From Candidatus Endomicrobium macrotermitis (lineage in GTDB: Bacteria > Elusimicrobiota > Endomicrobiia > Endomicrobiales > Endomicrobiaceae), in NCBI GenBank assembly GCA_031271405.1, contig JAISVT010000057.1:1-47992 (forward strand): a stretch of DNA of 47,992 nt, given 5' to 3'. Numbering within the stretch: position 1 is the stretch's first letter; each line of letters begins with the position of its first letter. The position numbers and the translations under genes were made by a program. Of the stretch, positions 23,374 through 47,992 are shown piece by piece. The notes beneath the pieces are model-generated. The model was not told where the DNA came from. It worked only from the letters and a program-made list of their open reading frames with translations, and searched no databases.

Positions 23374-26300
23374 ATGCGAATAAGCAAAAAAATTACGAAT
23401 GCCCTCTCATTAGCCGTCCTAGTATGCTTTTGCAATGCTTTTATATTTGCCGATATTGCAAAAGCAGTTTCATCCCCGTCGCAAAATATACGCTTTAACA
23501 TGTCATTTTTAGATTCTATTCACCCTGATTTTCACATGAATTCTGAAGGCAAAAACAATAATGTCTTTATAGTACAGGATCTGCACGGAGATAAATACGT
23601 ACAAAAGAGTATAAACGACATAATAAAATATTTAAATGAAAACAATAATATCGGCGAAATATTGCTTGAAGGGGCTTCCGGACGCGAAAACCATACATGG
23701 CTTTCAGGAATTAACAATAAACGCAAAAACGAAGTTTTAAACGACTTGCTCGACAATTCACTTCTTACCGGAGTAGAATATTATATTTTATCCAATACCG
23801 AAGAAAAAAAGTTAAAAGGTTTAGAAAACGAATACTTGCACTTCTCGAACATAAAACGCCTGCATGACATACAAAATATCCAGCCGGAAATTACACAAGA
23901 ACTTTCATTGATGAAGACGGCAATCAACGAGCGTCAAAAAAATGTTTATTCTTACGAGAATAAACGGCTGCTGAATTTCGAAGAGAGATATTTAAGCGGC
24001 AAATTAGGCACCGTGGATTTTTACGGCCGCCTTATCGAAAGCGCTGCCAAAATAAACGACGAAAAAATGTCGGCAAACTTAGAAATTTTAAGTGAAGCGA
24101 TGGAAGCGTTTAAAATTCCGCCTAAATTGCACATAGATTCGGTCAATAAAGAATTGACAAGTCTTATAAAAAGGCTTCAAAGCGAACTGCCTTACAAAAC
24201 TTATGTTAAAATGGCTGAGAAAACAAAAAAATTTTCCGATATGCATATTACATACGCGGCATTGAACGAATTACTCAAAGAAAATTATATTAATGAGTAC
24301 GATAACTTAAGACAATATTTATCCTACTATACGGGACAGCGCAACATAGACAGACTGGATCTGATAAAAGCCGAAGAATACGTAGTCGATGAATTATACA
24401 AGTACAACTCCATGACGAATTCGGAAATGTCTTTAGCAGCGTTCAGCCGCGCATTCAGACATTTCGAAAGATATTTCAAAGCCGAAGCTACAAATTTTGA
24501 CTACGATTATACGGCCTTTTTCGGCGCGGAAAATTTTATAAAGTTATACTCGGAAAAATTTAATACCGAAATAGAGTCAATAAAATCGAACAAAGACCTT
24601 TATGAACAATATTATGCGGCAAATATCGTAAGGAACATTCTTTTTGCGGAAAAAATAGAAGAAAGCCTGAAAAAGCATAACGGAAAAGTCATTGCCGTTA
24701 TGGGAGGATTTCATACCGACGGCGTAGGGAAAATACTAAAAAGCAAAAATATTATTCACAACATAGTGACCCCGAGCTTATTTCAAACGTCTCAGGATGC
24801 CAAACATACTTACATGACTCATTTAAAAAGCATCGTGGAACGGCAAACGCTGGCGCTGCAGATATATCTGGAACGCGGGGATACGCAGCAAATTATGCAG
24901 CTTTTTCAGGCTAAATATACGGAACTTCTTGCAAGCCGCGGATTAAACGCGGCATTGTCCGAATTGAACGCCTATCTGAATCTTATAAGCAATGTTACCG
25001 AGGACGATATAGAGTCGGTTACCGGAAGCAGACCCGAAAGATTTTCAAAAATACAAGACGCGTCCGTATCGTTAAACCCCGACAAAAGCATAAAGATACA
25101 ATTTACTTCCGTTTCAGACGGCAGGACCGAAAAAATCAAATTTGACATTGCATCAGAACGTTCAAAAGGCGGATATGCTTCCATAGCGGGCTGGGCTTCT
25201 GACAAAATTACAAGGTTTGCCGCTTTTTGGGAATGGATATACATACTGCCATTTTCAAGCTTCGCTTTCGGTTCAAAAACTTTAAACAAGGCATTAAGTA
25301 CAAAACTGGATTCCGACATTTCTATAGAAAAGAGTTCCGTACGTGAAAGAATGCTGGATATCGCCTCTTTGTTTCTTTTGTTCGGCATATTTGCTTTTTC
25401 GCCCCCCGTAGCGGTCGGGGCTTATGTCTTAATAAGAGCTGCGTTATTTTCAAGCCTGCACAAGGTTTATTCCGGCAACATTAAGCAGCATATAAGACTT
25501 TTCTTTTTAGGCACTATATTCTGGATTCCCGTCATAGGCCCGTTTGTTCATTACGCTTATAATGAATCTTTTTCAGACAGGCCGGCGAGCGTAGTTCAAA
25601 ATACCGCGCAGGCAAAACCTAAAATAGATTTCACCGTAACTTCGCTTGAAAGTCTTATAGACAAATTTAGAGCGGAAAATTCCAGGCAAGTTACCGTAAA
25701 TGACGTAATGAGCGACTCTTTTTCCCTTTTAATGCTGGACAACCTGAAACGCTCGATATCAATGATACAAACAGATGAAGATTTAATGCAGGCTTTTGAA
25801 TTGCTGGCATTTCTGGTACAAGCGAAAACATGGCTTTCCGCGGGAACAGACTCTTTAAGCTTAATCGGGCCGTATCAGCTTAGAGACAACAATCTTTCAA
25901 GTTACGAGCGTTCATGGCTTAATACGAAAGACGCCGAAGATGCAATAGCAAAAGCTTTGAATTTTTTTATTGAAAGAGAAAACAACGCATATTTATTTAA
26001 AAACATAGAGTCGCTTTACCATCTTTATTTCGCTGGGCAGAAAGAAAAACTGAAAATTTACGTTCAGGGAGACATCGAATACATTTCTAAATACCAAAGC
26101 GGAAAAAATCAAAACAGTACCGTAGAGAATTCGGATTTACAGGACGCGGATAAAATATTTTTCCGGGCAGACGGAATTGACGATGTTTTCGTAGAAATGG
26201 AATCGATTTTGAAGCAGTACGTAGAGAATGGAACCGAGCAGGAAATGAAATCCGCGATGGAGCGATATAAAAATATTGATAAAAACGGCAGAGAAGAACG

Positions 26301-28755
26301 GCGGCTTTTCGAAGAAAAGTTTAAAGAAGTATTTTTTGAACTTAACGATATAAGAGCTCTTACCGACGAACAAAGAGAAAAACTACGAGGCTACTATGAG
26401 ACGTACGGCATCAGAATATATGTGCTCGCACCCGTTTCTTCCGTTTTCGGTTCAAGCGCATTTTTAAAGAGGATGTTTTCCGGCAAACCGTACATGATGT
26501 TCAGCAATTACTCCATGCCCAACGAAACGGCAGGCAATAGAGTATTTACCGAAAGAAACTTCGGAGGACGCACCAACAATTATATAAGAAATTTAATTTT
26601 CATGCTGCTTAATGTCGAACAAAACGGAGCCTCTATGAGCAGCGACAAATATTATACTCCCGGAGACAGAATGGATGAAGAAGGCAGCGAAACATACAGA
26701 AACCTGTTATCTTTCAGAGCGCAGCAGGCATTTGAACTTATAGAAAACAATATGATTTTATTTATGGGAAATCAGCCCTTTTTGAAATCCGAACTGCAGA
26801 GTTTTCACGGGGAATTTTATGATATTTTATACAAAGCATCCGAAAGCGGCAGACTTATACCCAAAGCCGTATTAGACGCATTGGAAGCAATGAGAGCTTT
26901 ATTTGTATTTAATACTTTAAAAGCATCGGAATTTCATATAAAAGAACAAAGTTTGCAGAAAAAACTCAAATATATTGAAGATGAATACACCGCGTTTGCT
27001 TTAACGAATATCGCTGACGGCAAAGAAGTTGACATTGACACGAAAGACAGTATGATTTCATCAATGCTGTTTACAAGCGGCATAGGAGTATTTATTTCTT
27101 TGGTTGATCACGTTTTACGCACAAACGGCATCGAGAACTCCAGTATTATAGCTAACTTGTCGCATTCGTATTACGAATATGCTCCGTATTTGAATGCGGT
27201 AGGATTAGGCGACTCCAGAGCAAATGTAATACTTAATTTTGACGGAGTTAAAACAAATCTGGATAATGTACAAATCGATTACGGTAAAGCCAACCTTGTG
27301 CTTTTGGAGCCGGCATATAACAGATATGATATGGACACCGAAGACATTGAAGGATTTCTCCGTAAAGTTTTGGATATTGACGCTTCCACCGGTAAACCTA
27401 AAAGAGTTTTTGACAAACCTTTTTATGTCTGTATAGACAGAACCGCAGTCCCTTTTTGGAATATTTTTGATATAATCGATACATTACCTGACAATTTTCA
27501 CATAGTTGTTTATAACAGTTTACAAAAATTACATGAAAATTCGTGGGAGCTTACAAGCGGAGGCGGCGCTTTGTTAATCTCCGGGAATAATCTCGCAACG
27601 CACAAAAAATTTTCCGAAGAAATGAGCGAAAGCAGAAATGCGACGGGACAGATGCCGGATGCCTATGCGGTTAATGCGTTTGAAAAGATCTTCGCTTTGG
27701 GAAGAAACACCATCCTGCAAAGGATAAAAAGGATTACCGGGAATGCCGAAGCCATAGCAAAAGCCATGGCAAGAGCCGCCGAAATAAAAAATAACCGGTA
27801 TTTCGATGAAATAGTATCTCACGTAAGCATAAACAAGCAGACAAGCGGCGAGGCAAGTCTGCAAGTGCCTTTCATAGCGATAAATCCTAAAAGTAAATAT
27901 GCTTTTGATAAAGACATCAGGAAAGGCACATCCGCCCGCAACGATGCAATTGCCGATTTGCTTGCTCTTTTAAGAAAAAACGGAATATATGACGCCGCTC
28001 AAAGAAACAGTTACGGTTTCGATTCGCTTACTTTGGCCGCTTACGACGGAGACGCCGTAAGGATATCAGTAGGAGATTATCCTCCGGAAATAGCAGACAA
28101 AATAGCTTCGGTACTATCCGACTATACTTTACAAGTTCTTACTTTAAGCGAATTTTCTGATAATCCGGACACAATGGATGCGGATGCCGCCGCCGAACAA
28201 ATTATGCAGATATTGAGAGATCCGAACAACTATTATGAAACCCTTATGTTTAGAAATCACATTTCGAGGCTTTTAATCGTATCCCATCAAAAAGTCAGCG
28301 AAGGCAAAGAATCGTATAAAAAATTATTCGTTGCCGCAAGCATAGCTTTCGGGATGATAGATTTCAACGGCTTCAAAGAACATGAAAAAAACTACTTTAA
28401 GCGTAAAAGGGATGAGAGCACAAAAGGAATTCCTTCGTACAAGAAAATGCTTGCAGCTATATTAACGGAAAACTCCGGAGGGGAACGTGAGTTTTTTATG
28501 GAAGCTTTGAATACTGCAAAAACAATGCAGCCGGGTAAAATGACAGTCTTTATGGAAAATTACGGTATAGATAAAATATTGCGGGGATTTAACGTCTATA
28601 CGGAATATTTGAGTGATGCAGCAAATACAAATGACGCAACAGCGGCCGTCTTGGCGGATTTAGAGGTAATAAAAAACGATTCTGACACAGGCATAGCGGA
28701 AAGCACACGCATAATCACTCCAAAATTCTTCGCAGGAATCTTAAAAGCAGCCTAA
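23374..28755 (+). CDS. giant exported protein: TIKI/TraB/EreA-like N-terminal domain plus PLP (cystathionine gamma-synthase-like) C-terminal domain
   Basis: 1793 residues. A signal peptide (residues 1-30, AKA cleavage site) leads into a domain with QDLHGD (H71), ILLEG (E99) and MGGFH (H447). This H-E-H spacing is that of the TraB/EreA/ChaN/TIKI superfamily. Hydrophobic helices lie near 616-632, 663-690 and 705-728. From about 1200 to 1590 the chain reads like a type I PLP enzyme of the Cys/Met family: MLFTSGIGV (1231-1239), LLEPAYN, IDRT (D1355, pyridine partner), NSLQK (K1385, Schiff-base position), SGGGALL and VRISVG (R1563, substrate carboxylate). A standard enzyme is about 400 residues. 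It is the first gene of an operon with a strong promoter. Domain calls come from motif reading by eye; the activity is unknown. Confidence 0.65.
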   Translation: MRISKKITNALSLAVLVCFCNAFIFADIAKAVSSPSQNIRFNMSFLDSIHPDFHMNSEGKNNNVFIVQDLHGDKYVQKSINDIIKYLNENNNIGEILLEGASGRENHTWLSGINNKRKNEVLNDLLDNSLLTGVEYYILSNTEEKKLKGLENEYLHFSNIKRLHDIQNIQPEITQELSLMKTAINERQKNVYSYENKRLLNFEERYLSGKLGTVDFYGRLIESAAKINDEKMSANLEILSEAMEAFKIPPKLHIDSVNKELTSLIKRLQSELPYKTYVKMAEKTKKFSDMHITYAALNELLKENYINEYDNLRQYLSYYTGQRNIDRLDLIKAEEYVVDELYKYNSMTNSEMSLAAFSRAFRHFERYFKAEATNFDYDYTAFFGAENFIKLYSEKFNTEIESIKSNKDLYEQYYAANIVRNILFAEKIEESLKKHNGKVIAVMGGFHTDGVGKILKSKNIIHNIVTPSLFQTSQDAKHTYMTHLKSIVERQTLALQIYLERGDTQQIMQLFQAKYTELLASRGLNAALSELNAYLNLISNVTEDDIESVTGSRPERFSKIQDASVSLNPDKSIKIQFTSVSDGRTEKIKFDIASERSKGGYASIAGWASDKITRFAAFWEWIYILPFSSFAFGSKTLNKALSTKLDSDISIEKSSVRERMLDIASLFLLFGIFAFSPPVAVGAYVLIRAALFSSLHKVYSGNIKQHIRLFFLGTIFWIPVIGPFVHYAYNESFSDRPASVVQNTAQAKPKIDFTVTSLESLIDKFRAENSRQVTVNDVMSDSFSLLMLDNLKRSISMIQTDEDLMQAFELLAFLVQAKTWLSAGTDSLSLIGPYQLRDNNLSSYERSWLNTKDAEDAIAKALNFFIERENNAYLFKNIESLYHLYFAGQKEKLKIYVQGDIEYISKYQSGKNQNSTVENSDLQDADKIFFRADGIDDVFVEMESILKQYVENGTEQEMKSAMERYKNIDKNGREERRLFEEKFKEVFFELNDIRALTDEQREKLRGYYETYGIRIYVLAPVSSVFGSSAFLKRMFSGKPYMMFSNYSMPNETAGNRVFTERNFGGRTNNYIRNLIFMLLNVEQNGASMSSDKYYTPGDRMDEEGSETYRNLLSFRAQQAFELIENNMILFMGNQPFLKSELQSFHGEFYDILYKASESGRLIPKAVLDALEAMRALFVFNTLKASEFHIKEQSLQKKLKYIEDEYTAFALTNIADGKEVDIDTKDSMISSMLFTSGIGVFISLVDHVLRTNGIENSSIIANLSHSYYEYAPYLNAVGLGDSRANVILNFDGVKTNLDNVQIDYGKANLVLLEPAYNRYDMDTEDIEGFLRKVLDIDASTGKPKRVFDKPFYVCIDRTAVPFWNIFDIIDTLPDNFHIVVYNSLQKLHENSWELTSGGGALLISGNNLATHKKFSEEMSESRNATGQMPDAYAVNAFEKIFALGRNTILQRIKRITGNAEAIAKAMARAAEIKNNRYFDEIVSHVSINKQTSGEASLQVPFIAINPKSKYAFDKDIRKGTSARNDAIADLLALLRKNGIYDAAQRNSYGFDSLTLAAYDGDAVRISVGDYPPEIADKIASVLSDYTLQVLTLSEFSDNPDTMDADAAAEQIMQILRDPNNYYETLMFRNHISRLLIVSHQKVSEGKESYKKLFVAASIAFGMIDFNGFKEHEKNYFKRKRDESTKGIPSYKKMLAAILTENSGGEREFFMEALNTAKTMQPGKMTVFMENYGIDKILRGFNVYTEYLSDAANTNDATAAVLADLEVIKNDSDTGIAESTRIITPKFFAGILKAA

Positions 28756-31700
28756 TGAAAAAAACACCGTTTATTGTAACATTATCTTCATTTTTACTGA
28801 ATATCATATCTCCCGTATCGGCGCAGATAAGCGTTATCGGCGCGGATTACGACGTTATGCCCGCTTATTATTACGAGCAAAACTACAATGGTAAAAAAAA
28901 CATAGACATTTACCTTATAGAAGATTTGCATGCAAATTTAAGCGCCCAAAAAAGCATAAGCCGAATCATGGAATTTTTGGACAAAAACAGCGATATTACG
29001 GCAATTCTTATGGAGGGTACCGCAAAAACCGTTAACCCGTCGGTATTTTCTTACGGCAAAATACCGAACAAAAACAGGTTTTTGGACTACCTTTTAGATT
29101 CTTCGTTAATTAACGGCGTAGAATACTACGCTTTAAAAAACGATAAAGAAAGCAAAATTTCAGGGCTTGAAGACAAAACACTTTATGACGAAAACATAAA
29201 CAAACTCAAACTTATTTTCGATTCCAAGCGGGAAGTCAATAAATATCTGTCGGAAATGCAAAAAGATTTATCGCAAATTCAAAATGATTTATATTCTCCC
29301 GAAAACAAAGAAATTCTAAAAATGCAGAAAAAGCACGCGGCTTCGGCCGTAACGGATCTCAAATATTTCGGTTTTCTTTTAGACAATGCCGGGCACATAG
29401 CCGATAAGCCTTTATACATCGAAGAAGACTGTTACGCTTTAAGCGGTTATATATCCATGCAAAAAGGTTTCGGTAAAATAAATTATAAGAAATTAAACGA
29501 AGAAATTAATAATTTTTTTATTGCCGCAAAAGAGGTTTTCCCGTATGCAGTATATAAAGACTTGGCAGACTCGTTCAATAAATATGACAATCCGCTGATT
29601 TTCTGTTCTATACTTTCAAATATAATAAATGACAACAATCTTCGAGGTTACGGCGAAATAAAAAAAATAGGCGCGTTTTATTCCGTAAAATCGGATACGG
29701 ATTATAAAATTCTGCTCAAAGCGCAAAAAAGAATAGAAAAATTCATTTTCCTGTCCCATGCCTTAAGTCCGGAAGAAAAACGGCTTATAATATTAAGCGA
29801 CGCATTTGACAAGTACAAAAGCTATTACGGCGCTTCAGCAACCGAATACGATTACGAATTTATAAAAGGTTTCGGCGTCGGCGGCTTTGAAGAAGAATGG
29901 CTGAAAACTGTAAACAAGAAGGCCGTTTTTATCGACAAGAAGTTTGCGCTATTATATAAAAACTATTATGACAACAATATTGCGCGAAACAATGTTTTTA
30001 TGAAAAATATTCTCGATGCTTTAAAAAGCCGCGATGGAGAAGGTTCGCTGGCAATGCTTTGCGGCGGGTTTCACAGCGGCGTAATGAAAGAATTCTTTGA
30101 AGAAAACGGCATTTCGTACTGCATAATAACTCCGGATGTAAATGAATATTCCGGCGAAGACAGAACAGTTTATGAGAAATTGATTTCCGAAAACGGCGGA
30201 ATATCGGGTTCGGCAATCCCTCCCAAAGTTTTTATCGGCAAGGATCATTCTTTACAGATACTGGATATTTTAAGCTCCGTATATAATAAAACTCCCGATA
30301 AACAAACGGCTTTAAAATCGATTTCAGACGCGGCAAAAGAATTAAACGCCGGCAACATTGAGATTACGCCGTTTGCCGACAGCGGCGGTACGCCGTACGT
30401 ATCGTTAGAGTATCCGGACGGATACGGCGTTACTTTTAACATCGAAAGCAGACGGATTGTAAATCCTGAAGATTTAAATATCAACCGGATAAACGCCGAC
30501 ATCAAAGAAAAGATTGAATTAAAAAGAGTTAAGCGAATCATCGAAAGCCTTAAAAACAATATTTACTTTCAGCAAAGTTTCTATCAAAATTCATTAAATA
30601 CATTTCTTGAAGACATCGGTTCCGCACAATCACGGCAATATTCGCCGTATGAAATATTTAAAATTATTTTATTTATGGTGCAATCCGCAACATATATCGC
30701 TCCCGCAAAGTTAAACAACATAAGGGGACCCTTACAAAACGTACGTAATTCTTACGAAAGGTCTTATATAGATTACACCGCGGAAGAGGCGCTTATAGGA
30801 GACAAATTAAACTATTTGCTTTCAGAATCACACGGCGCAACTGGTCATTGCAATGTATCGTTATTTAAAAACAAAGCCGGCATGTTTGCCTCGTTTATTT
30901 TAAAATCCGACGCGGCAAGTTCAAAGATTAGAATATTTTCCGACGTAAATTACGACATATTTTCTGGAAATTTAGGCATTGCCCGCGAAGAAAAACATGA
31001 AGACGCCGATATCATTATAAAATCCGCACAGCCTTCCCAGGAGCACATAACGGAACAGTTGAAACTTTATAAAGACTCTAATGCAAAAATCATATTTATA
31101 GACGTAGCTTCGGGAGAGGGAGAAATAGGAGCTTTCAGCGCTAAATTCAGGGATTTTCTGTCTTCATACGATAAACGCGTATTTATAGTTTTGGGATTAG
31201 ACAGCGTCAAAAGCCTTTTTGCAGACATAAGCAAAGTTTTGCCGGACACTCCTTGCATTGTGGTTTCAAACAAACCCATCGCAAGAAACAAAAACGGTCT
31301 TTTTATAGATCAGCGATATGGTTTTAAAATAAGTTACTTTGTAAAGAATGCCGTAGTCATGATATTTAGCCGTATCAACGGATTTGACAATAAAATTTCA
31401 GGTTTTGCCGGCAAAATCGCAAATGTAAAAAAAGCAACCGGGCTGCGTGTAAGCGACAATACGATGCGCAATGTTAACGGCCTCATTAAAAATTTTGAAG
31501 ATATCATCGATAATGCCGGCAATGAAAACAAGCCGCTTACGGAAATATTAAGCGGCTCCATACTGCCGTATTTAAAAGACATATCCGTAAAAATAGACAA
31601 AAATGCTTTGACCAAGGAAGAATTTTTATCTTTTCAAGATGATTACAGAGTTCTTGCAAGTTTTAAAAATATCATTAATGCAGACTTGTTTTTTGACAAC

Positions 31701-33485
31701 GCAGACTATGACTCAAGGCTAAAAGACACGGAAAACCGATATTTAAATTTAGGCATACTTAACAATGCCGGTTTTTTAAACGCCGAAGCAATGATTTTTC
31801 CCAGCGCGACAAGCGCGTCAAATACGTTTTTGGCATATATTGCCGGCTTACAAAAAGACGTAAATATTTATGTTCCGCAAAATGCTTATTATGAATTCAG
31901 CGCTATTATAAACTTCGACAACATTTTAAATAGAAACAGTTTTAAAAAAACCGTGACCAGATTTTCCGACAAGCCGGGAATTCTTGACGCAAAAACGGTA
32001 AATGCCATGTTTTTTGAACCTATAGAAAACCGTCCGGATATGAGAATGGAAGACATAAGAAGTTTTTTCAGGGAAAACATCAATAATAAATCTTTCAAGG
32101 AAGATGTTTATATCTTCATAGACAACACTTTAAGCCCGTTTATGTCGGCAGATGATTTTACAGAAGGAGTTAAACCCGATAAAAACGTACATATCGTTTT
32201 TTATTGCAGCCTGCATAAACTGCATCAAAACGGATTGGAACTGGCATCGGCCGGAGGAGTTATTTTATTATCCGAAAATAAGGATAAAAATTTACAATTT
32301 TATAACAGTCTGGCTTTTTTACGAAAAAATCTAGGTTATATGCCTGATAAGTACGCCATTACAGTCACTGAAAGCATGCTGAACGACGGCAATATGCCGG
32401 AAATGATAAGATCAAAACTTTCAAACACATCAAACCTCATAGCCGGAATCACGAATGCTCTTGAGCGTTCGGGAGTGGTTTCCGGAGAAATAATAAGTTT
32501 CCCCACGGTTGCGCAGCATCCCTCCTATCAAATGTTTAAAAATGAAGTTTCGTTAAATCCGCTGTTCGGCGCTCCTTTCTTTTTTATAAAAACAAACAGA
32601 AGTTATATTAGATTTATAGAAAAAGACCTAAAAACATTGCTTGAATCTTCCGGAATTTACGCTTTTAATTTACGCAACAGTTTCGGATTTAACGATTTGA
32701 CGATGGTACGTGTGGGAGATTCCGTAAGGGTATCGGTGGGTTTGCATAATGAATTGACTTTGGACTGTATTAAAGACGTTTTTGCAGCATATGCGGAGCT
32801 TTTATACATTGCGAACTCCGGTCAAGCATATGATGAAAAATACGATACCGTAAAAAGGTTAACTTCTTTGGTCATAAATAACGATGCCATAACAGATTTG
32901 GATATTACAAGCCATATTCTTTTAAAAAATATAAACTATTCGGAAAAAGAGTTAAATAGAGACAGTTTATCCGAAAAAGAGAAGACGTTCTACGGAGCTC
33001 TATTTGCCGTAAGCTATGTTATGTTATATGCGCAAAACAACGTTTCCTTTGCCGAGGCAACAAACGTTTCTATTGAAACATTAAAACCCTCAAGGAGAGC
33101 GGCTTTTTATAACATACTTGATGAACTGATAGAAAGCAACGAAATCGATGCATTGAAAATGACCGCATCGGTTATCGAGACATTTAAAGGAAAGAGCAGT
33201 ATGAAAAAATTTTTGGGAACCCTGTCAAAGCGTTTTGCGGCGTCGAATGAGTTTATAAACAGTTTAGATTTGTCAGATTTTGATGATATAGAAACTGCAA
33301 ATGCCTCTTATACAATAAATAAAAAGCTATCCGCATGGGTTGAAAACGAAAATACCGAAGGCGGTAATGCCGCAGGTGCATTGGTTACGGTTCTGACTGC
33401 TCCCGCGGATATACGGCAAAATACAATAACAAACTCCGTTTTAGAAAATACCGCGACTGTCAACGGTATATTAACTTCTTCATAA
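28755..33485 (+). CDS. giant exported protein: paralogue of the preceding TIKI-like/PLP-like fusion
   Basis: 1576 residues. It overlaps the previous stop by one base (TAATG) and has no ribosome binding site, so translation is probably coupled. A signal peptide ends near VSA-QIS. The TIKI-like set is EDLHAN (H59), LMEG (E87) and CGGFH (H440). The PLP-like domain (about 985-1350) is closer to the canonical enzyme than in the sister: YDSRL, MFFEPIEN, FIDNTLSPF (D1123), CSLHK (K1155), SAGGVILL, SFGFNDL and VRVSVG (R1325). Both proteins align along their whole length, for example at SYERS and in the block ending SYFVKN/NYIRN. This copy lacks the hydrophobic insert of the first, so its PLP domain should lie outside the cytoplasm unless the leader is an anchor. 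Confidence 0.65.
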   Translation: MKKTPFIVTLSSFLLNIISPVSAQISVIGADYDVMPAYYYEQNYNGKKNIDIYLIEDLHANLSAQKSISRIMEFLDKNSDITAILMEGTAKTVNPSVFSYGKIPNKNRFLDYLLDSSLINGVEYYALKNDKESKISGLEDKTLYDENINKLKLIFDSKREVNKYLSEMQKDLSQIQNDLYSPENKEILKMQKKHAASAVTDLKYFGFLLDNAGHIADKPLYIEEDCYALSGYISMQKGFGKINYKKLNEEINNFFIAAKEVFPYAVYKDLADSFNKYDNPLIFCSILSNIINDNNLRGYGEIKKIGAFYSVKSDTDYKILLKAQKRIEKFIFLSHALSPEEKRLIILSDAFDKYKSYYGASATEYDYEFIKGFGVGGFEEEWLKTVNKKAVFIDKKFALLYKNYYDNNIARNNVFMKNILDALKSRDGEGSLAMLCGGFHSGVMKEFFEENGISYCIITPDVNEYSGEDRTVYEKLISENGGISGSAIPPKVFIGKDHSLQILDILSSVYNKTPDKQTALKSISDAAKELNAGNIEITPFADSGGTPYVSLEYPDGYGVTFNIESRRIVNPEDLNINRINADIKEKIELKRVKRIIESLKNNIYFQQSFYQNSLNTFLEDIGSAQSRQYSPYEIFKIILFMVQSATYIAPAKLNNIRGPLQNVRNSYERSYIDYTAEEALIGDKLNYLLSESHGATGHCNVSLFKNKAGMFASFILKSDAASSKIRIFSDVNYDIFSGNLGIAREEKHEDADIIIKSAQPSQEHITEQLKLYKDSNAKIIFIDVASGEGEIGAFSAKFRDFLSSYDKRVFIVLGLDSVKSLFADISKVLPDTPCIVVSNKPIARNKNGLFIDQRYGFKISYFVKNAVVMIFSRINGFDNKISGFAGKIANVKKATGLRVSDNTMRNVNGLIKNFEDIIDNAGNENKPLTEILSGSILPYLKDISVKIDKNALTKEEFLSFQDDYRVLASFKNIINADLFFDNADYDSRLKDTENRYLNLGILNNAGFLNAEAMIFPSATSASNTFLAYIAGLQKDVNIYVPQNAYYEFSAIINFDNILNRNSFKKTVTRFSDKPGILDAKTVNAMFFEPIENRPDMRMEDIRSFFRENINNKSFKEDVYIFIDNTLSPFMSADDFTEGVKPDKNVHIVFYCSLHKLHQNGLELASAGGVILLSENKDKNLQFYNSLAFLRKNLGYMPDKYAITVTESMLNDGNMPEMIRSKLSNTSNLIAGITNALERSGVVSGEIISFPTVAQHPSYQMFKNEVSLNPLFGAPFFFIKTNRSYIRFIEKDLKTLLESSGIYAFNLRNSFGFNDLTMVRVGDSVRVSVGLHNELTLDCIKDVFAAYAELLYIANSGQAYDEKYDTVKRLTSLVINNDAITDLDITSHILLKNINYSEKELNRDSLSEKEKTFYGALFAVSYVMLYAQNNVSFAEATNVSIETLKPSRRAAFYNILDELIESNEIDALKMTASVIETFKGKSSMKKFLGTLSKRFAASNEFINSLDLSDFDDIETANASYTINKKLSAWVENENTEGGNAAGALVTVLTAPADIRQNTITNSVLENTATVNGILTSS

Positions 33486-38653: not shown

Positions 38654-41600
38654 TTATGCCGCGGATAGGATGTCTCTTATTGCTTTTGTCGCAGTAACGC
38701 CGGAACGTTTTGCAAAATCTTTGGCATCTATTTTTGATACCGCGTATTCTACCAGTACCATCATAGCCGCAATAGCCTCTTGCTCAACGGCAGCAGACTC
38801 AGCAGAAGCAATAAGCATTTCACCTTTGCTCTCCAGCTCCATGAAATAACTCTTAAGCGCAGAATTATTAATAATATCAGTCTGTACAGAATCTCCAAGC
38901 TTCTCCATAGCCATTTGCTTAAGCTGTTCAATATTAACGGCATTACCGTTAAGCACACTTGCAAGCAGCCCCCTGCCAAGTAATGCGGCAACCTTACTTT
39001 CCACCTCATTTCCTTTCTTAAGCATTGATTGCATAAACAGTTCTTTTGAAATTCCTAGATCTTCAAGGAAGCGTTGTTCCATATAATTTTCAGCCGCTCC
39101 CATAATGTACCCTCTTGCTCTGTTCACTCTTACCGATTCGCTTCCGGAACCTTCAAGCAGCTTTTTAACTACTCCGCGAATTACATTACTTGCTCCGGCG
39201 TTTTCAAGAGCCGACTTAATAGCATCGGGAGTTACATCGCTGCTTGAAAGAATAGTACTGAGGGCATTCACATTCGTAAATCCAAATTCCGATTTTTGTT
39301 TGCCTACATTAGCTTTACGGTATCCGTTTCTAAAAGCCGCAAGTTCTTCTTTAATGTTTTTCGGAGTTAAGCGTTTACCGACATTTTCGTAGTAGTCTTC
39401 TATAATATCCGCTCCTTTAGCTGCAGAAATTATACTATCATCTATGAGCTCTCCTCGTTTAGAACTTGTATTTATAAGATGATTCTTAAACGGCACCATG
39501 TTATCTACAGATATTCTCTCCAAATCGGCAATTGCCTTCTGAATTTTATCCGCACTATCTAATACCGAGACATCAAGAGTTATATTGTAAATCCCAGCGT
39601 CAAAACATGCTTTAACATTGGCTTCAAAATCAGAAGAATTTGCATTGACAGCCGGAGCTATTTCAATACCGCTGGCTCTCAATACCGCTATTGCTTCTAC
39701 TAAAGCAGGGTCAACTTTGCCTGACGAAATTCTGTCACCGGTACTTACCGCCAAAATCGTAGCATCACTCTTCTTACGGTCGACGCTGATTTGCTTCACG
39801 ATACTTGACACGGTTGTTGCTCTGCCTGACAAAAGAGACGAACCGATTATTCTTTCTCTGATATTAGCTTGCCTTTCTATATCCAAAGCTTCAAAGAAAG
39901 CTTCAGAACCAAACTCCCTGTCTGCGAAAGCATTGGCTATATCAACCACGCCGCTACCAGCGGATTCTTCGACATTGACTGAACTGTTTTTATTTACCAT
40001 GTCAACCGCAGACACTCCGCCTATGCCCAAACGGTTTTGTAATAGCGGATTTTCGTTGATGTTGTAAGCAAATGCTGCAAAAGCAGTTTCATACAATCTT
40101 TCCTTTTCCGAGGCCGACATTTCTAATCCGTCTATATTTTTTACGCGCATTACTATGTCATAAACCACATTTCCGTCACTATTTCTGACAACTTCTCCAT
40201 TTTCAAATCTTGCTACAAAATATTGTTCTGCAACAAAAGCTCTTTTTCCCTTTTCACCTGTCCGGACAAAGCTAAAGCCGGTATTAGGCATTATCTTTCT
40301 AACTTCCCATATTCCGGTTTCGGAATTGTATCTCTGCGACAACGCAGTTTCGCTTCCGTATACGACTGTGGCAATATTGCGGTTTTGCGCATAAGTCGCC
40401 TGATGCTGCCGGGCAGTTTCACTGTTCGAATTATTTAAACCGGCATTTACAAGTATTACTTCGTTGCTTCTGAACCTGTTTATTTCTCCTTTAAATCCAA
40501 ATATATTTTCCGCAGCCTGAGCCGAAGCGTCTCTTGTCTTTGCCGCTGTGACAGGCTCTTTAGCATATCCGACAGAGGCGGAAACAATAGGATATCTGCT
40601 TGCATAGTCAAACCTCGGAGCCAGATCGCTTATGTACCTTCTATCGGTCAAGTTGCTCAAATCCCTGATTTTTTTACCGATAGTTCTTGGAGTAGATTTG
40701 CGTATATCTTCCGGAATATCGGCAACTGTCGCATCTTCGGGTAAATACGCATTATCTTTAAGAATTTTGAGCAATTCATAATCTTTGACAAGAGCATTAA
40801 ATTCTTTAGTAGCCAAGCCTAAAATTTCTATATTTTTTTCGGCACTGGCTTCAATCAATTTATTTACCTTTCTCTCAAGGGCTGCGACTGTCATTTTAGG
40901 GATATTTTCTAAAGCTTCTACATAGTTATAATCTTCACGGCCGATATATCTTTTCAGCTGTTCAATTTTTTCAGCTATGCCGGCAGCTTCTTTTTCCGCT
41001 GCTGTTGCCGCTTTCGCTTCTTCAATTGCTTTTCTATCTGCGACCCTCTTTTCTGCCGCAGCTCTTTTTTCTGCCTCTGCTTTTTCAACTTCTCCAGATG
41101 CCTGTTCTGCAGATTTCTGCCCGGCCGCTTTTTCAATAAATTCTATGACATTGCCTCCGCTGTCGATAATTCTTATACCGTCTGCATCAACGGTTACCGT
41201 TACGTCTTCCAAGACAGTTCTGCCGTTAAGCGCTCCCGGATAAATTTCTTCTTCCGTTGCGGTATTATTTATAAATCTGACGTCGCCGGCAAGAGTCAAA
41301 TCGGATAAATCGAATTTTCCGTCTATGCTGAGAGTTTTGATTCTGCTCGTGTCAAGATATGTCATCTTGTCAAACATAGAGAACAAATAAACTCCTAAAT
41401 CGTTATTTTTAGACTGAACTCCGCCGTTTACCACTATTTGATTGTCCCTTACTTCTCCTCCGTATAAGAAACCCAGGATATCCCCTACGGCTTTATAAGG
41501 AGAAAACCCTATTTCTTCGCGCTGTTCTGCATTTGCATAAGCTACTTTCACTAACGGGGTACCCTTGCCAAGCAACTTTTCCATAGTGCTATTCAAAGAA

Positions 41601-44600
41601 GCGTCAGTTCTTCTCTCTCTTTGCAAACTGATATTAGTCCAAGTAAGCACCTGACCTATAGCCCATTCCATTTTACTGAAGAAATCGCCTTCAGGATTGC
41701 TTTCTGTTACCGTTTTCGGGTCAACATTAATAACGGGAGGCGCCATCAATTCAAATGTTTTCTGAACGCCTTTATCCTGAATTAACTGACCGAACAATAT
41801 GCCGAGAGTAAATACGTCCCACTGAGAATTATTCGTATTAAACAACGCCGCATTTAACTTACTCTGAGGTCTGAATAATCCGCTTATATGCTGGTCAAAC
41901 GCTTTAAGTTCTTTTTCTCCCATTGTATCTTTTGTCTTCAATCCCAAAGTTTCGAATATGGAACCAAGCGTATAAGAAGCAAAATTCGCAACTTCTATCA
42001 AGAACATAAATGTCCCGGTTGCAAGTTTTAAGAACATCAGCGTTCCGCCTTTGGCGTCTATTCCTATTCTTGTCGCAAAATACATGGTAATTCCGCCAAA
42101 ATTGCCTTTAGCGCCGGCATTAACTGCATCGCCGTTAGCAAATACAACAGAACCCAATTCCTTCCTTGCGTCAGCCATCTGTTCCGGGGTCATCTTGCTG
42201 AAATCATATCCCTTTTCTATCATATAATCATTAACTCTTTTCACTATTTGCATCATTACCGTAAAAAATACGGGGCCATGGCTTCCGTGAGTCATTTTTT
42301 TAAGTATCGGCGTTTCAAAATCGTTTGCGTCTTTATCCAATTCCATATTCAGGCTGTATGTACCGTCAGAGTTTTTCTGCCAGTCAGGGATTCTGTCGGA
42401 CATCATAATCCCTTCACGGGCACCCTCTCCGAGAACCTGCGCTAAAACTCCGGAGTTGAAAATTTCAGGATTCAAGCTCTTCAACAATTGCGCATTAGCA
42501 TTATCCGCAGGATTCGAACCTACAACCTGCATGATTGCCTGCTGACCGCCGTTATTAGCTGCCGCGGCAGCCTTAATATCTATAATCTTTGCAAATTTAA
42601 ACACATCAATTTCTTCATCGCCGACTTTTACTTTTGTCTGTATTAACAACGGCGTATCCGTGGCTTTTCCGGTTAACTCCGGCACATTAATATCAGTGCC
42701 GTTTATTTTCTTTCTTACTACCGGAGCTTTCTTTTTATCAAGTTTAAATCCGTCGCCTTCAGTTTCATAAAAATCGGACGGGTTTATTCTTGTAAAACCG
42801 TATTTTGCGAGTCTTGCTACAATGTCAGACGCATAATGACTATCCAATTTTTTACCGAATAAATTAAGATTCTTAGCAATATCGGACAAGGCCAACACGG
42901 CTTCTTTATCTCCGGCATTTATTGCATTCTGCAAAGCTTCCATATACTTATTATACGCGTATATTACGGGATGCCTGCCCATTACCCCGGCGCCGACTCC
43001 GCCGTTTAGCCACAAAACTACCATCGGAGCTATTTCCGAAACCGCTTGTTTTAATTCATCGTAAGGGCGGATGTCTATATCTTCGGACTCTCTGGAAGCA
43101 ATAATTTCAGCGCCTTCTTCATCCGAAGAAGCAATCGCAATGTCCTGAACCCCCGTTTCCAATCGCTCTAATCCGTCAATATCCCTTAAACCTAAAGAAT
43201 TAAGCACAAGCAATCTCCATACCAGAACGCCTGTTTCATCATATCCGTATTCGGAAAGTGTTCCTGTTTCATCATACGAATAATACTTCATTACTCTTAA
43301 AGCTTCGGCTAAGGCGTTGACTCTGGCCGTATTTTCCTCTCTTAACCGTTTTACGGTTTCTTCATCTTTTTTATGTTCATCGGTTATTCTTGTAAGCTTT
43401 ATATCGCCCATGGCTTTATACAAAGCATTTACGTCTTGCGGAGTTTTCTCGCTCGCTTTATACGCTTCTATCGCGTCGTTCAATGCTTTTATCGATGCGT
43501 CTTGAACGGCTGATTCTTCCGTAACCGAAGGTTCCGATTCACCGGCTTTCGGAGTATAAACCTCTTCAACTTCAGGATCAACCGTAAATGTCGCTTTGCT
43601 GTGATCCGCACTTAAATCAACCTTTGTTATGCGCTGTATTGTAATCTTACCGTTTGCATTTACCGTAACTTTAAAATTCTCTAATGTGCTCCTTCTTAAA
43701 TTTTCAGGCGAGAATACAAAGTTAGGATCTCCGGAATTATTCTCAAACCAAATATTGCCTTTTAACGTCAGATTTCTTATTCTTCCGTCTCTTGTTAATT
43801 TAAATACTTCAACTCCGCTAAAATCATTGCCTACTAATGTGGTGTACGCTGCTGCCGCCATTTCCTGCGCTTTGTCGCTTTCCGAAACATCTACTATCGC
43901 TTTAGGCGATTGGCCTTGAATTTTATTGGCAAGCACCGTATAACCGAATTTAATGGACGACGGCAAGAATCCCGTAAACTCATCGTCTCTTTGATTTTTA
44001 TCGGCAACAACTACATCTACAAACTTGTTGCCTTCACCAAATAACGCATTCATGACGGCATTGATTCTGTTGCCTGCCTCTGTCCCCGAATATCTTAAAA
44101 ATTCCAAATTCATTCCCAAAGACAACAAAAATTGCCCGGATGCCAGCTCTACATTTATCTCCGAACCCGTATCTTCAAGTATCGGGAACGGAACAATAAA
44201 ATTATTATATTGTTCGGGCGTTAATAATGTTTTGAGTTCCGAAAGAATTACGCCTAAACTAAAAGAATTGAAAGAAGAACCGTTTGTATTAAACGGCTGG
44301 GCTATATTGCCCATTCCCAATTCTTCCATATTGGAGTTAACGCTTGCAGAATCTGCTTGTGATTTTGTATCGCCAAGCTCAAACAGCCACGGAAAAACAA
44401 TATTTCCGTCTTTATCTATTGTTAAAACGTCTCTTTCTATAAGCGTTTCTATTTTTCTTATTGTTAACTCGCTGCCGACAGCGGCACCTAACAGCACTTT
44501 TCCATAATTCAAAAACTCTTCTTTTGTAAATTTCTTAAATCCGAGAACTCCGCCTTTTCTGTCTTGCGCTTCTCTCGTGGCAAAAAACATAACTGCTCTT

Positions 44601-47600
44601 GCGTTTATACCCTGACGGGGTCTTGAATTTTGTATTTCCGCGCTTGCAATGCTGATATCGCCGCTGGAGTTTTGCAAGGCAGTAATTGCTCTGCGCGTCA
44701 TTCTCGTAACTTCTCTTCCGTTCAACGTTCCATTTGCTACGTTTATCAGCCTTTGCGCAAGTAAGAAGAATGTTCCGCCGTGATTCAAATGTTTTGTTTT
44801 AGTCGATGAAAAATGCAATATTCTTCTTTTATTTTCATCTTTCTTCTCCGAAACCACTCTGAAATTATTGCCGGCAATAATGTATCTGTTATCAGCGGCA
44901 AAACTTCCAAGCAATCTATCGATTAAATCATCATTTCCCATACCTGCCAGCGTTTCTCTGGAAGGCAATATGGATTCGTCACCTGCTGCAGTAAGTATAA
45001 CTATAGAGTCTCCGTTTTCTTTCGCTTTGGCAACTCTGTCATCCATTATGCTGACAAATGTTTTTTCGCCTGCTTTATCGGTTATTACCGCAATATCGCT
45101 GGCTTTGCCGGCAAGGTCGGGAACAAGTTCCGTTCTCCACCACCTGTCCTGATCATCTTGCTGCCAGCCTTCTTCTTCTTCAGAGCCGGCAGGTCTGGAA
45201 ACGTACAGTACCGAAACCGTTTTATTAGGCGACTTTAAGCCTTTTTCATCTATTTTACCTTCATCCCTCATTTTTATCTTACCGTCTTCCTGCCGGTAAA
45301 AATCTTCCCAACCTATTCTGGGAAATCTGTACACCTTATTTATTTTTCCCAACTCTTCATCAGTCAAAGTTACGCCGAATAAATCTCCTTGTTTGGCAAG
45401 TCTGTCTAAAATCCCCAGCATATCTCTATCGTTAGCTTCCTCCGCCGCTTCCCTTGCAATAGTCCATTTTGCCAATGCAAATATTATAGGATGCCTTCCC
45501 TTTACTGCTTCGCCGGTACCCGCGCTTAACAATAAATTTATCAATTTATGCTTTTCTTCAGGTCTTAACGAATTATAATAACTTCTGTATCTGTCTAATG
45601 TTATAGTTAACCTCTTTGTCAGCCTTTCGGTGTCCGTATCGCGCGCCGCAGGCACAAAGTTTGCATCGGGCATATTGCCTAAATCGTATATTACATGGTT
45701 GTTAGAAACAATAGCGTCTGACATACCCGACGTATACAAAATATTCTGCATCCAGAAATCTACCCAATCTTGCTCATATTCGTAATGGACGCCGTTTACA
45801 TAATATCCTATTAATTTATACGCTTCGCCTATAGCCTTAACTTTAGCTATATTTTCTTCGGAACGGTCATTTTCAGTAAACTCAACACTAGCTATATATC
45901 TGCGGACAATGTTGTGCAGGCTTTCTTTTTTAACTCTGCTTGTTGTTGAAGTTGCTACATATTTCCTAAGGACAGTGTAAAGATCCTTTACCGATTGATC
46001 ACTGATTTTCGATGCTATCAATACAAACGGCTGCAGTTTTTCATTATCTTCTTCAATTTGTTTTCTGTTTATTAATCCTTTGACAATGCCTAACAAAGAA
46101 CTAACCGCCGTCAATCTTTGAGTTTCTTCCGAAGCTGCTACCGCTGCGTCCTGCACTGCCTGATCAGGCACTTCTCCAATTTCACCGAATCCGTCTTCTT
46201 CATCAACTATAACTTCATCTTGAGCATCAGAGGAAATAGACGCTTCAGGGCGCAAAGAAAGACCTTCCGAATCTGCTTGCCCTGAAGTTGAAGAACTACC
46301 GTCTGTATGTGTAGGAGAGGCAGATTCTTCAGGTTGTGCCTGAACCGAGCCTGGAACTTGCCTGAAAATAATGTTTCCGGCTCCATTTTCCTCTACTGTA
46401 AAAATTCCGCCGTACCTTCTCTCAAGCGCCATTCTATAGCGTTCAACTCTACCAACATTTATTATGCCTTTTAACATTGCAATTATTAGGGCACCTTTAA
46501 CTTCCAGTTTAAAAACATTATCTTCCAGTTTAAGTTCATTAGTTAAAGACTCAGCTTCTCCTTCTGAAATCAAACCTTCAATCTCTTGTGCGGTTAAAGG
46601 TGTCTTGACAAGTATGCCGTTTTCATATGTTACATTTATTCCCATCCTTCTATATGAGCCGATAACATCTCCGGCAACAATGTTATTCAAGTCTTCGTTA
46701 TCTAACGGGGTATATGCCTCATTGTCCATCAGCAAATCATAAAAAAACTGATTCGTTAAAACTTTTTTTCTCATTGCTTCCGAAGATTTTGCATTATCGG
46801 CTTTATTCGCAGCCATTTTTATGATTGACATGCCGGCTACAAACAAAATTACAATCAGTCCGGCAAGCATAAAACTGAGGCCAACGATTACAGATAACGC
46901 GGCTATAACGATACCTGCTCCAATCAATAAATTACCCCGAATGTTATTTTTAAAATTTTCGACGAAACTTTTAAAATCTTTAACATCAATCAGATTTGAT
47001 GCAAAAGCCAACACAAGCAGTCCAAATGCAACAATTGAGGGAACTGAAAGAATAGCTGTAGCGGAAGAAAATAAAATGGCTGCTGCAAAAGTAGCAACAG
47101 CGCTAAAAGCAAATGAATATTTTGACTTTATTGTTTGGCCAAGGCTTAAAAGACCGTTTCTTCTTCCGGCATCAATGACCCTGTAAGAAAGCGTATGGTT
47201 TATGTTTATGCCGAAAGCATTTCTTATAACAGCACCCATTAATTCTTTACTTGCGAACGTGCCCTTTGAATCAAAACCAAAATCAAAGAAAGTGGTCTGA
47301 ATATCGCCTTTTATTTGCGAAATCTCATTATAAATCATTTTTTCAAAATTATTATTCGCAAGCCAATCCTGCATTTCATTGTAATCTTTAATTCTCAAAT
47401 CAATCTGGCTTTCAATCTGTTCAAGAGTAAGTGTACTCTGATTATCTCGTATCCAACTTGATTGTTCATAAAAACCTTTAGCATTCAGCCAAGCTCTCAT
47501 CAAAAACAAAGTTTCCGATTCGCTTCTTGTCCCGATCACCTCAGAACTGGTCTTAATCACAGCTAAATCATTTTGTTCAAGAGCTTTTTTGAAATTTTCA

Positions 47601-47992
47601 TTAAAACCCTGATATTGAATTTTAAAATCCTCAATAACTTTATTTAATGCCTCTATGAAAATTCTCCTATTGCCTTCTTCTTCAGATGTTCCTGAAGCAT
47701 CTATGAGTGCCTGTTCAAATTTTTTAATATCGCTGATATCCGCACTTCCTCTATAAAGCTCTACATATTTGTCATATATCTTCGCCTTCAACATATCCGG
47801 CAAGCCTTTAAAAGCATATATCATCTGCGGATAAGATATAGCGGTATTATCTATCGTATTTTCTTTGTCTCTGAAATTATTTAAAACAAATCGGTTTGAA
47901 ACAATAGAATTTTTTGCTCCGAATAGGCCCCTGATAAAATCTATGCCTAAAACAAAGGCTAAAGGAATTGAAACTGCCAACAAAGGAATAAC
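38654..47992 (-). CDS. giant membrane protein with two tandem UDPGP-like domains (5' end truncated by window edge)
   Basis: At least 3112 codons, open to the right edge; the TTG at 47983 is not a credible start because the hydrophobic chain continues beyond it. Numbering from it: membrane segments at about 285-332 and 350-390; an acidic/Ser-rich linker (541-618); UDPGP-like unit 1 (about 690-1420: GRHP 829, KGG 1143, FNTN 1231); unit 2 (about 1520-2260: NGGVGAGVMGRHP ending 1672, NGD 1950, DAKGG 1976, FNTNN 2048); an Ala/Glu/Lys coiled coil (2280-2345); then about 760 unrecognised residues. FNTNN, DxKGGT and the HG loop are hallmarks of UTP:sugar-1-phosphate uridylyltransferases, with C-terminal beta-helix-like strands. 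Unit 1 has lost the glycine loop and the NxD. Whether either is active is unknown. Confidence 0.65.
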   Translation of the reverse strand, partial: VIPLLAVSIPLAFVLGIDFIRGLFGAKNSIVSNRFVLNNFRDKENTIDNTAISYPQMIYAFKGLPDMLKAKIYDKYVELYRGSADISDIKKFEQALIDASGTSEEEGNRRIFIEALNKVIEDFKIQYQGFNENFKKALEQNDLAVIKTSSEVIGTRSESETLFLMRAWLNAKGFYEQSSWIRDNQSTLTLEQIESQIDLRIKDYNEMQDWLANNNFEKMIYNEISQIKGDIQTTFFDFGFDSKGTFASKELMGAVIRNAFGININHTLSYRVIDAGRRNGLLSLGQTIKSKYSFAFSAVATFAAAILFSSATAILSVPSIVAFGLLVLAFASNLIDVKDFKSFVENFKNNIRGNLLIGAGIVIAALSVIVGLSFMLAGLIVILFVAGMSIIKMAANKADNAKSSEAMRKKVLTNQFFYDLLMDNEAYTPLDNEDLNNIVAGDVIGSYRRMGINVTYENGILVKTPLTAQEIEGLISEGEAESLTNELKLEDNVFKLEVKGALIIAMLKGIINVGRVERYRMALERRYGGIFTVEENGAGNIIFRQVPGSVQAQPEESASPTHTDGSSSTSGQADSEGLSLRPEASISSDAQDEVIVDEEDGFGEIGEVPDQAVQDAAVAASEETQRLTAVSSLLGIVKGLINRKQIEEDNEKLQPFVLIASKISDQSVKDLYTVLRKYVATSTTSRVKKESLHNIVRRYIASVEFTENDRSEENIAKVKAIGEAYKLIGYYVNGVHYEYEQDWVDFWMQNILYTSGMSDAIVSNNHVIYDLGNMPDANFVPAARDTDTERLTKRLTITLDRYRSYYNSLRPEEKHKLINLLLSAGTGEAVKGRHPIIFALAKWTIAREAAEEANDRDMLGILDRLAKQGDLFGVTLTDEELGKINKVYRFPRIGWEDFYRQEDGKIKMRDEGKIDEKGLKSPNKTVSVLYVSRPAGSEEEEGWQQDDQDRWWRTELVPDLAGKASDIAVITDKAGEKTFVSIMDDRVAKAKENGDSIVILTAAGDESILPSRETLAGMGNDDLIDRLLGSFAADNRYIIAGNNFRVVSEKKDENKRRILHFSSTKTKHLNHGGTFFLLAQRLINVANGTLNGREVTRMTRRAITALQNSSGDISIASAEIQNSRPRQGINARAVMFFATREAQDRKGGVLGFKKFTKEEFLNYGKVLLGAAVGSELTIRKIETLIERDVLTIDKDGNIVFPWLFELGDTKSQADSASVNSNMEELGMGNIAQPFNTNGSSFNSFSLGVILSELKTLLTPEQYNNFIVPFPILEDTGSEINVELASGQFLLSLGMNLEFLRYSGTEAGNRINAVMNALFGEGNKFVDVVVADKNQRDDEFTGFLPSSIKFGYTVLANKIQGQSPKAIVDVSESDKAQEMAAAAYTTLVGNDFSGVEVFKLTRDGRIRNLTLKGNIWFENNSGDPNFVFSPENLRRSTLENFKVTVNANGKITIQRITKVDLSADHSKATFTVDPEVEEVYTPKAGESEPSVTEESAVQDASIKALNDAIEAYKASEKTPQDVNALYKAMGDIKLTRITDEHKKDEETVKRLREENTARVNALAEALRVMKYYSYDETGTLSEYGYDETGVLVWRLLVLNSLGLRDIDGLERLETGVQDIAIASSDEEGAEIIASRESEDIDIRPYDELKQAVSEIAPMVVLWLNGGVGAGVMGRHPVIYAYNKYMEALQNAINAGDKEAVLALSDIAKNLNLFGKKLDSHYASDIVARLAKYGFTRINPSDFYETEGDGFKLDKKKAPVVRKKINGTDINVPELTGKATDTPLLIQTKVKVGDEEIDVFKFAKIIDIKAAAAANNGGQQAIMQVVGSNPADNANAQLLKSLNPEIFNSGVLAQVLGEGAREGIMMSDRIPDWQKNSDGTYSLNMELDKDANDFETPILKKMTHGSHGPVFFTVMMQIVKRVNDYMIEKGYDFSKMTPEQMADARKELGSVVFANGDAVNAGAKGNFGGITMYFATRIGIDAKGGTLMFLKLATGTFMFLIEVANFASYTLGSIFETLGLKTKDTMGEKELKAFDQHISGLFRPQSKLNAALFNTNNSQWDVFTLGILFGQLIQDKGVQKTFELMAPPVINVDPKTVTESNPEGDFFSKMEWAIGQVLTWTNISLQRERRTDASLNSTMEKLLGKGTPLVKVAYANAEQREEIGFSPYKAVGDILGFLYGGEVRDNQIVVNGGVQSKNNDLGVYLFSMFDKMTYLDTSRIKTLSIDGKFDLSDLTLAGDVRFINNTATEEEIYPGALNGRTVLEDVTVTVDADGIRIIDSGGNVIEFIEKAAGQKSAEQASGEVEKAEAEKRAAAEKRVADRKAIEEAKAATAAEKEAAGIAEKIEQLKRYIGREDYNYVEALENIPKMTVAALERKVNKLIEASAEKNIEILGLATKEFNALVKDYELLKILKDNAYLPEDATVADIPEDIRKSTPRTIGKKIRDLSNLTDRRYISDLAPRFDYASRYPIVSASVGYAKEPVTAAKTRDASAQAAENIFGFKGEINRFRSNEVILVNAGLNNSNSETARQHQATYAQNRNIATVVYGSETALSQRYNSETGIWEVRKIMPNTGFSFVRTGEKGKRAFVAEQYFVARFENGEVVRNSDGNVVYDIVMRVKNIDGLEMSASEKERLYETAFAAFAYNINENPLLQNRLGIGGVSAVDMVNKNSSVNVEESAGSGVVDIANAFADREFGSEAFFEALDIERQANIRERIIGSSLLSGRATTVSSIVKQISVDRKKSDATILAVSTGDRISSGKVDPALVEAIAVLRASGIEIAPAVNANSSDFEANVKACFDAGIYNITLDVSVLDSADKIQKAIADLERISVDNMVPFKNHLINTSSKRGELIDDSIISAAKGADIIEDYYENVGKRLTPKNIKEELAAFRNGYRKANVGKQKSEFGFTNVNALSTILSSSDVTPDAIKSALENAGASNVIRGVVKKLLEGSGSESVRVNRARGYIMGAAENYMEQRFLEDLGISKELFMQSMLKKGNEVESKVAALLGRGLLASVLNGNAVNIEQLKQMAMEKLGDSVQTDIINNSALKSYFMELESKGEMLIASAESAAVEQEAIAAMMVLVEYAVSKIDAKDFAKRSGVTATKAIRDILSAA

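Follow-up and report, generated by a model that had tools for sequence, protein, structure and literature searches.

p1 and p2 are adjacent giant proteins of Candidatus Endomicrobium macrotermitis, each of which combines a signal-like N-terminus and an N-terminal domain common to their family with a divergent PLP domain of the cystathionine-lyase type that keeps the key residues of the active site. It is proposed that both are exported Elusimicrobiota giants and that their PLP payload is probably active on an amino acid outside the cytoplasm, a reading that we consider about evenly poised between right and wrong. The window, that is the whole stretch of 47,992 nucleotides analysed here, is contig C33 (JAISVT010000057.1) of a 1.89-Mb, 99.7%-complete genome (G000) and was compared with the termite-gut Endomicrobium MAGs G003 (matched to 'Ca. 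Endomicrobium embiratermitis'), G002 ('Ca. E. labiotermitis') and G023 (Endomicrobium sp. Gx485_bin123).

The two giants and their PLP domain

p1 is a 1793 aa protein (23374..28755, forward strand) that was delineated from the ORF listing, domain scans, an AlphaFold model and its orthologue in G003. It is composed of a signal peptide, an EreA/ChaN-like domain, a CPBP-like membrane segment, an alpha/beta domain, the PLP domain and a C-terminal tail, in this order. p2 (28755..33485, forward strand) is a 1576 aa protein of similar layout that lacks the membrane segment, and the last base of the p1 stop codon is at the same time the first base of its ATG. A third giant of at least 3112 aa lies on the reverse strand (38657..47992); its N-terminus is cut by the window edge and its tail reads ..AIRDILSAA. 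The p1 orthologue in G003 is approximately 62% identical with a dN/dS of about 0.18. Between this genome and G003, dN in the PLP core is 0.23 for p1 and 0.17 for p2 with dS above 1, and the C-terminal part diverges about twice as fast as the core. Judging from these substitution rates the PLP core is under purifying selection and among the better kept parts of p1 and p2.

The PLP fold-type-I domain spans residues 1176-1591 of p1 (26899..28146, +), as delimited by alignment, PDB profile search, AlphaFold, VIA and hhalign, and residues ~1000-1352 of p2 (31752..32810, +), as delimited by alignment, PDB profile search and a residue check. An AlphaFold model of p1 780-1625, built from 11 sequences with a mean pLDDT of 57 and a pTM of 0.64, can be superimposed by VIA onto cystathionine gamma-lyase, methionine gamma-lyase and CGS with Z scores of 20-21 over model residues 397-812, which correspond to p1 1176-1591. 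These superpositions mostly have an rmsd of 3.4-5 Å over about 290-315 residues at roughly 12-18% identity, and Foldseek returned PLP enzymes only among the matches listed (E ~1e-7). The profile of nine PLP-domain copies (alignment A1) searched against the PDB gave Cys/Met PLP enzymes as its first three matches (4oc9 with E 1.2e-4, 5ijg and 1n8p). In hhalign, a reference alignment that joined MetB and MetC of E. coli to the canonical Cys/Met enzyme of this genome (C10, 429 aa) matched the domain with an E value of 1.3e-6 over 278 columns, starting at the phosphate loop and extending as far as R-x-x-x-G. When p1 and p2 were scanned directly with Pfam and NCBIfam, the PLP domain went unmatched, which would be expected if PLP-like residues had arisen by chance in an unrelated fold; fold, profile, register and conservation nevertheless all agree, and with the VIA scores strongly against it such a coincidence is barely credible. 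A phmmer search of p1 against the PDB was likewise uninformative on the PLP region, and Pfam Cys_Met_Meta_PP (PF01053), with a cut-off of 27 bits, scored 12.2.

The earlier note placed the pyridine-binding Asp, the Schiff-base Lys and the carboxylate-binding Arg in both proteins, and when checked singly all six residues were found where it had put them. In p1 these are D1355 (KPFYVCI-D-RTAVPFW, 27436..27438, +), K1385 (VVYNSLQ-K-LHENSWE, 27526..27528, +) and R1563 (AYDGDAV-R-ISVGDYP, 28060..28062, +), and in p2 D1123 (32121..32123, +), K1155 (32217..32219, +) and R1325 (32727..32729, +), all assigned by residue check in the MetC register. Further copies were collected with a sequence query of related genomes and comprise the p1 and p2 orthologues, a 2471 aa protein (C63) with its relatives and a double-PLP protein from G002. 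Most of the nine copies in A1 are 24-29% identical to p1, the p1 orthologue being 65% identical, and 31 of its ~381 positions do not vary at all. These include every column that matches the MetC Tyr, Asp, Lys or Arg (chance p = 3.6e-5), as well as Ser at K-3, the inclusion of which lowers the chance probability to 2.6e-6. A tenth copy, from another Elusimicrobiota family (G276, locus L041), also keeps Y, D, K and R and belongs to a protein that has a CPBP-like membrane segment as well as the signal peptide and the N-domain. An ambiguous base in this MAG breaks the frame of the gene, and the two pieces were read separately. The ring-stacking Tyr, Asp, Lys and Arg are thus kept in ten of ten copies, one of them from another family, and the concern that homologues might lose the lysine freely was not borne out, both G002 copies and that of G276 retaining Lys, Asp and Arg. 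The model of p1 goes part of the way towards placing these residues in a common pocket, as the predicted cystathionine gamma-lyase fold extends over 1176-1591 and the residues fall into the correct register of the sequence.

Other features of the site are less canonical. The SG of the phosphate loop is present in p1 (FTSGIG at 1233) and degenerate in p2 (PSATSA at 1016), while a YY pair occurs at 1266-1267 of p1 and 1045-1046 of p2. The residue before the Schiff-base Lys is Q or H in the giants as opposed to T or S in known enzymes, and the YxRxxNPT phosphate-binding motif, which is contributed by the neighbouring subunit, has no counterpart in the sequence alignment. Because of the missing YxRxxNPT, the Q or H, the PSAT loop of p2 and the sub-threshold Pfam score, the domain, which probably works like these enzymes, is best described as a divergent relative that stands outside the Cys/Met family itself. 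The same departures, namely the absent trans YxR motif, PSAT in place of SGM in p2 and the altered residue before the Lys, would also suit a pseudoenzyme or binding domain whose pocket is kept for a ligand or for structure, without catalysis. We consider this somewhat unlikely, as Lys, Asp, Arg and Tyr persist in all copies, whereas a domain kept only as a scaffold should have lost the Lys in some of them.

The alpha/beta domain upstream of the PLP domain was located at 25756..26613 (+) in p1 by the AlphaFold model and hhalign, and at 30861..31283 (+) in p2 by AlphaFold, where it is Rossmann-like with weak matches (PRPP synthetase, Z 6.7). It was considered as a degenerate second PLP copy that would provide a built-in dimer, since segments of the two domains run parallel by eye. 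This idea was dropped because hhalign lent it no support (E 0.01-0.4) and the model of the p2 domain gave mainly Rossmann-like matches with Z below 7.

Signal-like N-termini and the location of the domain

The N-terminus of p1 (23374..23466, +; cleavage after A31 or A26, ..IFADIAKA) and that of p2 (28755..28823, +; cleavage between ..NIISPVSA and QIS) are predicted to be Sec-type signal peptides by a rule of thumb that combines a K/R-containing n-region, a hydrophobic core and an AxA-type site. This agrees with the signal peptides that the earlier note had ascribed to p1 and p2, and the same rule is passed by 22 of 24 members of the family. Neither p1 nor p2 has an RR before the hydrophobic core, the twin-arginine motif being found in two of the 24 members. 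The note's premise, that the cytoplasm is the normal place of action of PLP enzymes, holds as a rule and has exceptions in PvdN, a Tat-exported PLP enzyme outside the cytoplasm (PMC6085387), and in the periplasmic racemases P. putida Alr (PMC6034422) and BsrV (PMC7890096).

p1 contains a hydrophobic membrane region at residues 660-728 (25351..25557, +) with the FxxxH and HxxxN of CPBP-type domains, as seen in a Kyte-Doolittle scan and in the sequence, and EELLFRG is present in the G276 homologue. In the p1, C63 and G023 giants such a region precedes the PLP domain, so that it could turn the chain back and leave the domain in the cytoplasm; the same outcome would follow if the N-terminal segment were not used for export. 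The enzyme types found in the family, which are cytosolic, fit this alternative as well. The Kyte-Doolittle scan detected no other strong hydrophobic segment in p2 or its orthologue, which keep the PLP domain all the same, and the N-termini look cleavable. Furthermore, the genome has separate genes for the canonical Cys/Met enzyme on C10 (429 aa) and for a phosphoglucose isomerase of canonical type, and the giants therefore need not serve the cytoplasm. A cytoplasmic location is thus considered unlikely. The return to the cytoplasm that the earlier note had allowed for is disfavoured for p2 and may apply to p1, which has its membrane region ahead of the payload. Since p2 lacks another strong transmembrane segment its PLP domain should, on the simplest reading, lie outside the inner membrane. 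The long PLP giants at L021:1874-9286 (+) and L019:1409-8803 (+) also contain, between two membrane regions, an HExxH-like sequence (HELAH) that suggests a zinc-peptidase-like domain.

A family of giants with cytosolic-type payloads and a common tail

The genome encodes about 20 giant paralogues with a common N-terminal domain, p1 and p2 among them, and the giants form a family that has in common a signal peptide, this EreA/ChaN-like N-domain and a C-terminal [IVLM]Lx[AS][AS] tail. The N-domain occurs in 67 of 336 Elusimicrobiota genomes, in ORFs of up to 11,814 aa, and has no above-threshold match in G001, a relative with a 1.6 Mb genome on a single contig. In p1 (IVQDLH..LEGA..GGFH; 23533..24969, +) it was recognised by alignment and a Pfam ChaN match below the cut-off (14.2 bits vs 27.7), and in p2 (28872..30230, +) by VIA and an AlphaFold model with pLDDT mostly 80-95. 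DLH, EG, GxE and GGxH are its invariant motifs. The best VIA matches all score below 8 and are EreC (6xcs, Z 7.5) and BcR135 (2rad/3b55, Z 6.5-6.6), while a sequence search against the PDB gave no match of note. The VIA matches accord with the weak Pfam match to ChaN, and the N-domain is tentatively referred to as EreA/ChaN-like.

The payloads of the sibling giants include UDPGP with phosphoglucose isomerase and phosphoglucomutase, PEP-utilizers with PPDK_N, CBM48 with amylase, MFS, RelA/SpoT-like, HD, CofD with HAD, kinase-like and metallophosphoesterase domains, and VWA with six AAA_5. The first of these combinations is found in a 3723 aa giant with a signal peptide (L046:1704-12872, +, contig C21 of the same genome), whose isomerase scores above the NCBIfam equivalog cut-off (606 vs 492 bits) and, at 41-49% identity, retains the signature motifs; the gene of a canonical 548 aa isomerase lies beside it. 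With such siblings the PLP case becomes one instance of a pattern in which cytosolic-type enzymes stand behind a signal peptide. Partial or rearranged enzyme domains in some sibling giants would again fit a loss of catalysis in the PLP domain, against which the intact motifs and equivalog-level score of this isomerase can be set. A 5186 aa giant with a signal peptide (L047:1277-16834, -, contig C36) carries VWA and six AAA_5 (dynein-related, midasin-like) ATPase domains. Two others, L051:1208-9841 (-) and L071:3377-15565 (-), invert the order that is usual in PPDK, with the PEP-utilising domain placed ahead of the ATP-binding one. The continuation of the exported G276 giant (L041:5074-7122, +) contains stretches resembling sigma-70 region 2 and region 4.

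The tail was identified by comparing C-termini and reads GILKAA-COOH in p1 (28735..28752, +) and GILTSS-COOH in p2 (33465..33482, +). Among the giants examined, some of which were picked by length alone, the 21 whose 3' end is intact all end in [IVLM]Lx[AS][AS]-COOH; of 105 other ORFs of at least 150 aa from the same loci, many of these being mechanical ORFs and not genes, none does. The loci were 23374-28752, 28755-33482 and 38657-47992 of the window together with L018-L022, L042-L057 and L071. Of the seven complete giants that belong to other genera and families, six end in the tail too, if M is allowed for L. An NCBIfam scan of the C-terminal 100 aa found no known sorting signal, and a tmRNA search made for comparison with the ILSAA tail gave weak matches only, with no tmRNA gene called. 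From its distribution the motif is a possible new C-terminal tag, for which sorting and protease recognition are perhaps the obvious candidate roles. Directly downstream of the third giant lies a gene for an FtsH-type protease (AAA + M41; 36852-38510 of the window, -), and FtsH-like neighbours of giants were noted by eye at L018:14001-15500 (-) and at L090. FtsH recognises nonpolar C-terminal tails, and a link between this neighbour and the tail of the giants is therefore possible.

Proposed mechanism and comparison with known systems

In the extracytoplasmic reading favoured here, a Sec signal peptide would carry each giant through the inner membrane, and the protein would fold outside as an EreA/ChaN-like domain, a linker or membrane segments and then the payload. 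The divergent fold-type-I domain of the cystathionine-lyase type would most likely bind PLP through K1385 or K1155 as an internal aldimine, with the Asp on the pyridine nitrogen, the Tyr stacked on the ring and the Arg on the carboxylate of the substrate, which would be an amino acid, probably a sulfur-containing one, encountered outside the cytoplasm. The C-terminal tail may serve as a common second tag, perhaps in sorting or quality control. It speaks against an extracytoplasmic enzyme that PLP is made in the cytoplasm, so that a Sec-exported protein would need to find it outside. A bolder proposal, which we regard as doubtful, is that Elusimicrobiota have a dedicated export route for giants marked at both ends that places working cytosolic enzymes (the PLP lyase, phosphoglucose isomerase with phosphoglucomutase, and PPDK) outside; the signal peptide and EreA/ChaN-like domain would be the front mark and the tail a new sorting or quality-control mark at the rear.

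Should the PLP domain be active outside the cytoplasm, this would be a fold-type-I enzyme exported within a Sec-type giant, and the source of its cofactor would become a question. The larger point is the existence, in an under-studied phylum, of a family of apparently exported giants with cytosolic-type enzyme folds and conserved end tags, by which the function of Elusimicrobiota giants becomes testable domain by domain, starting with assayable chemistry. No paper joining Endomicrobium and 'giant protein' was found, and an Endomicrobia paper (mBio 2024) makes no mention of large protein, 'secret' or pyridoxal.

Among known systems, the PLP domain resembles MetB, MetC, CGL and MGL (PF01053) in its fold type I and in the order and identity of the SG loop, Tyr, Asp, S-x-x-K and the Arg in RxxxG. 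It differs from these enzymes in lying inside a putatively exported giant, in lacking YxRxxNPT and in scoring far under the Pfam cut-off. The N-domain is reminiscent of EreA/EreC and ChaN (PF04187, 'Haem-binding uptake, Tiki superfamily') through its weak ChaN match, its top VIA matches and its DLH, E and GGxH residues, but its scores against them are borderline. That PLP-type enzymes can occur outside the cytoplasm has precedents in PvdN, BsrV and Alr. The first of these is a Tat substrate that stands alone, whereas p1 and p2 are multi-domain giants with Sec-type N-termini, and the periplasmic racemases BsrV and P. putida Alr have a different PLP fold. A parallel in scale is offered by the giant genes of Elusimicrobia and Omnitrophota, from the phylum studied here and sister phyla, which in the accessible part of a review encode very long predicted proteins, some with signal peptides, that have been linked to carbohydrate degradation or predation (PMC12057145). 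In that part of the review the common N-domain, the C-terminal tail and the cytosolic-type enzyme payloads that characterise the present giants go unmentioned.
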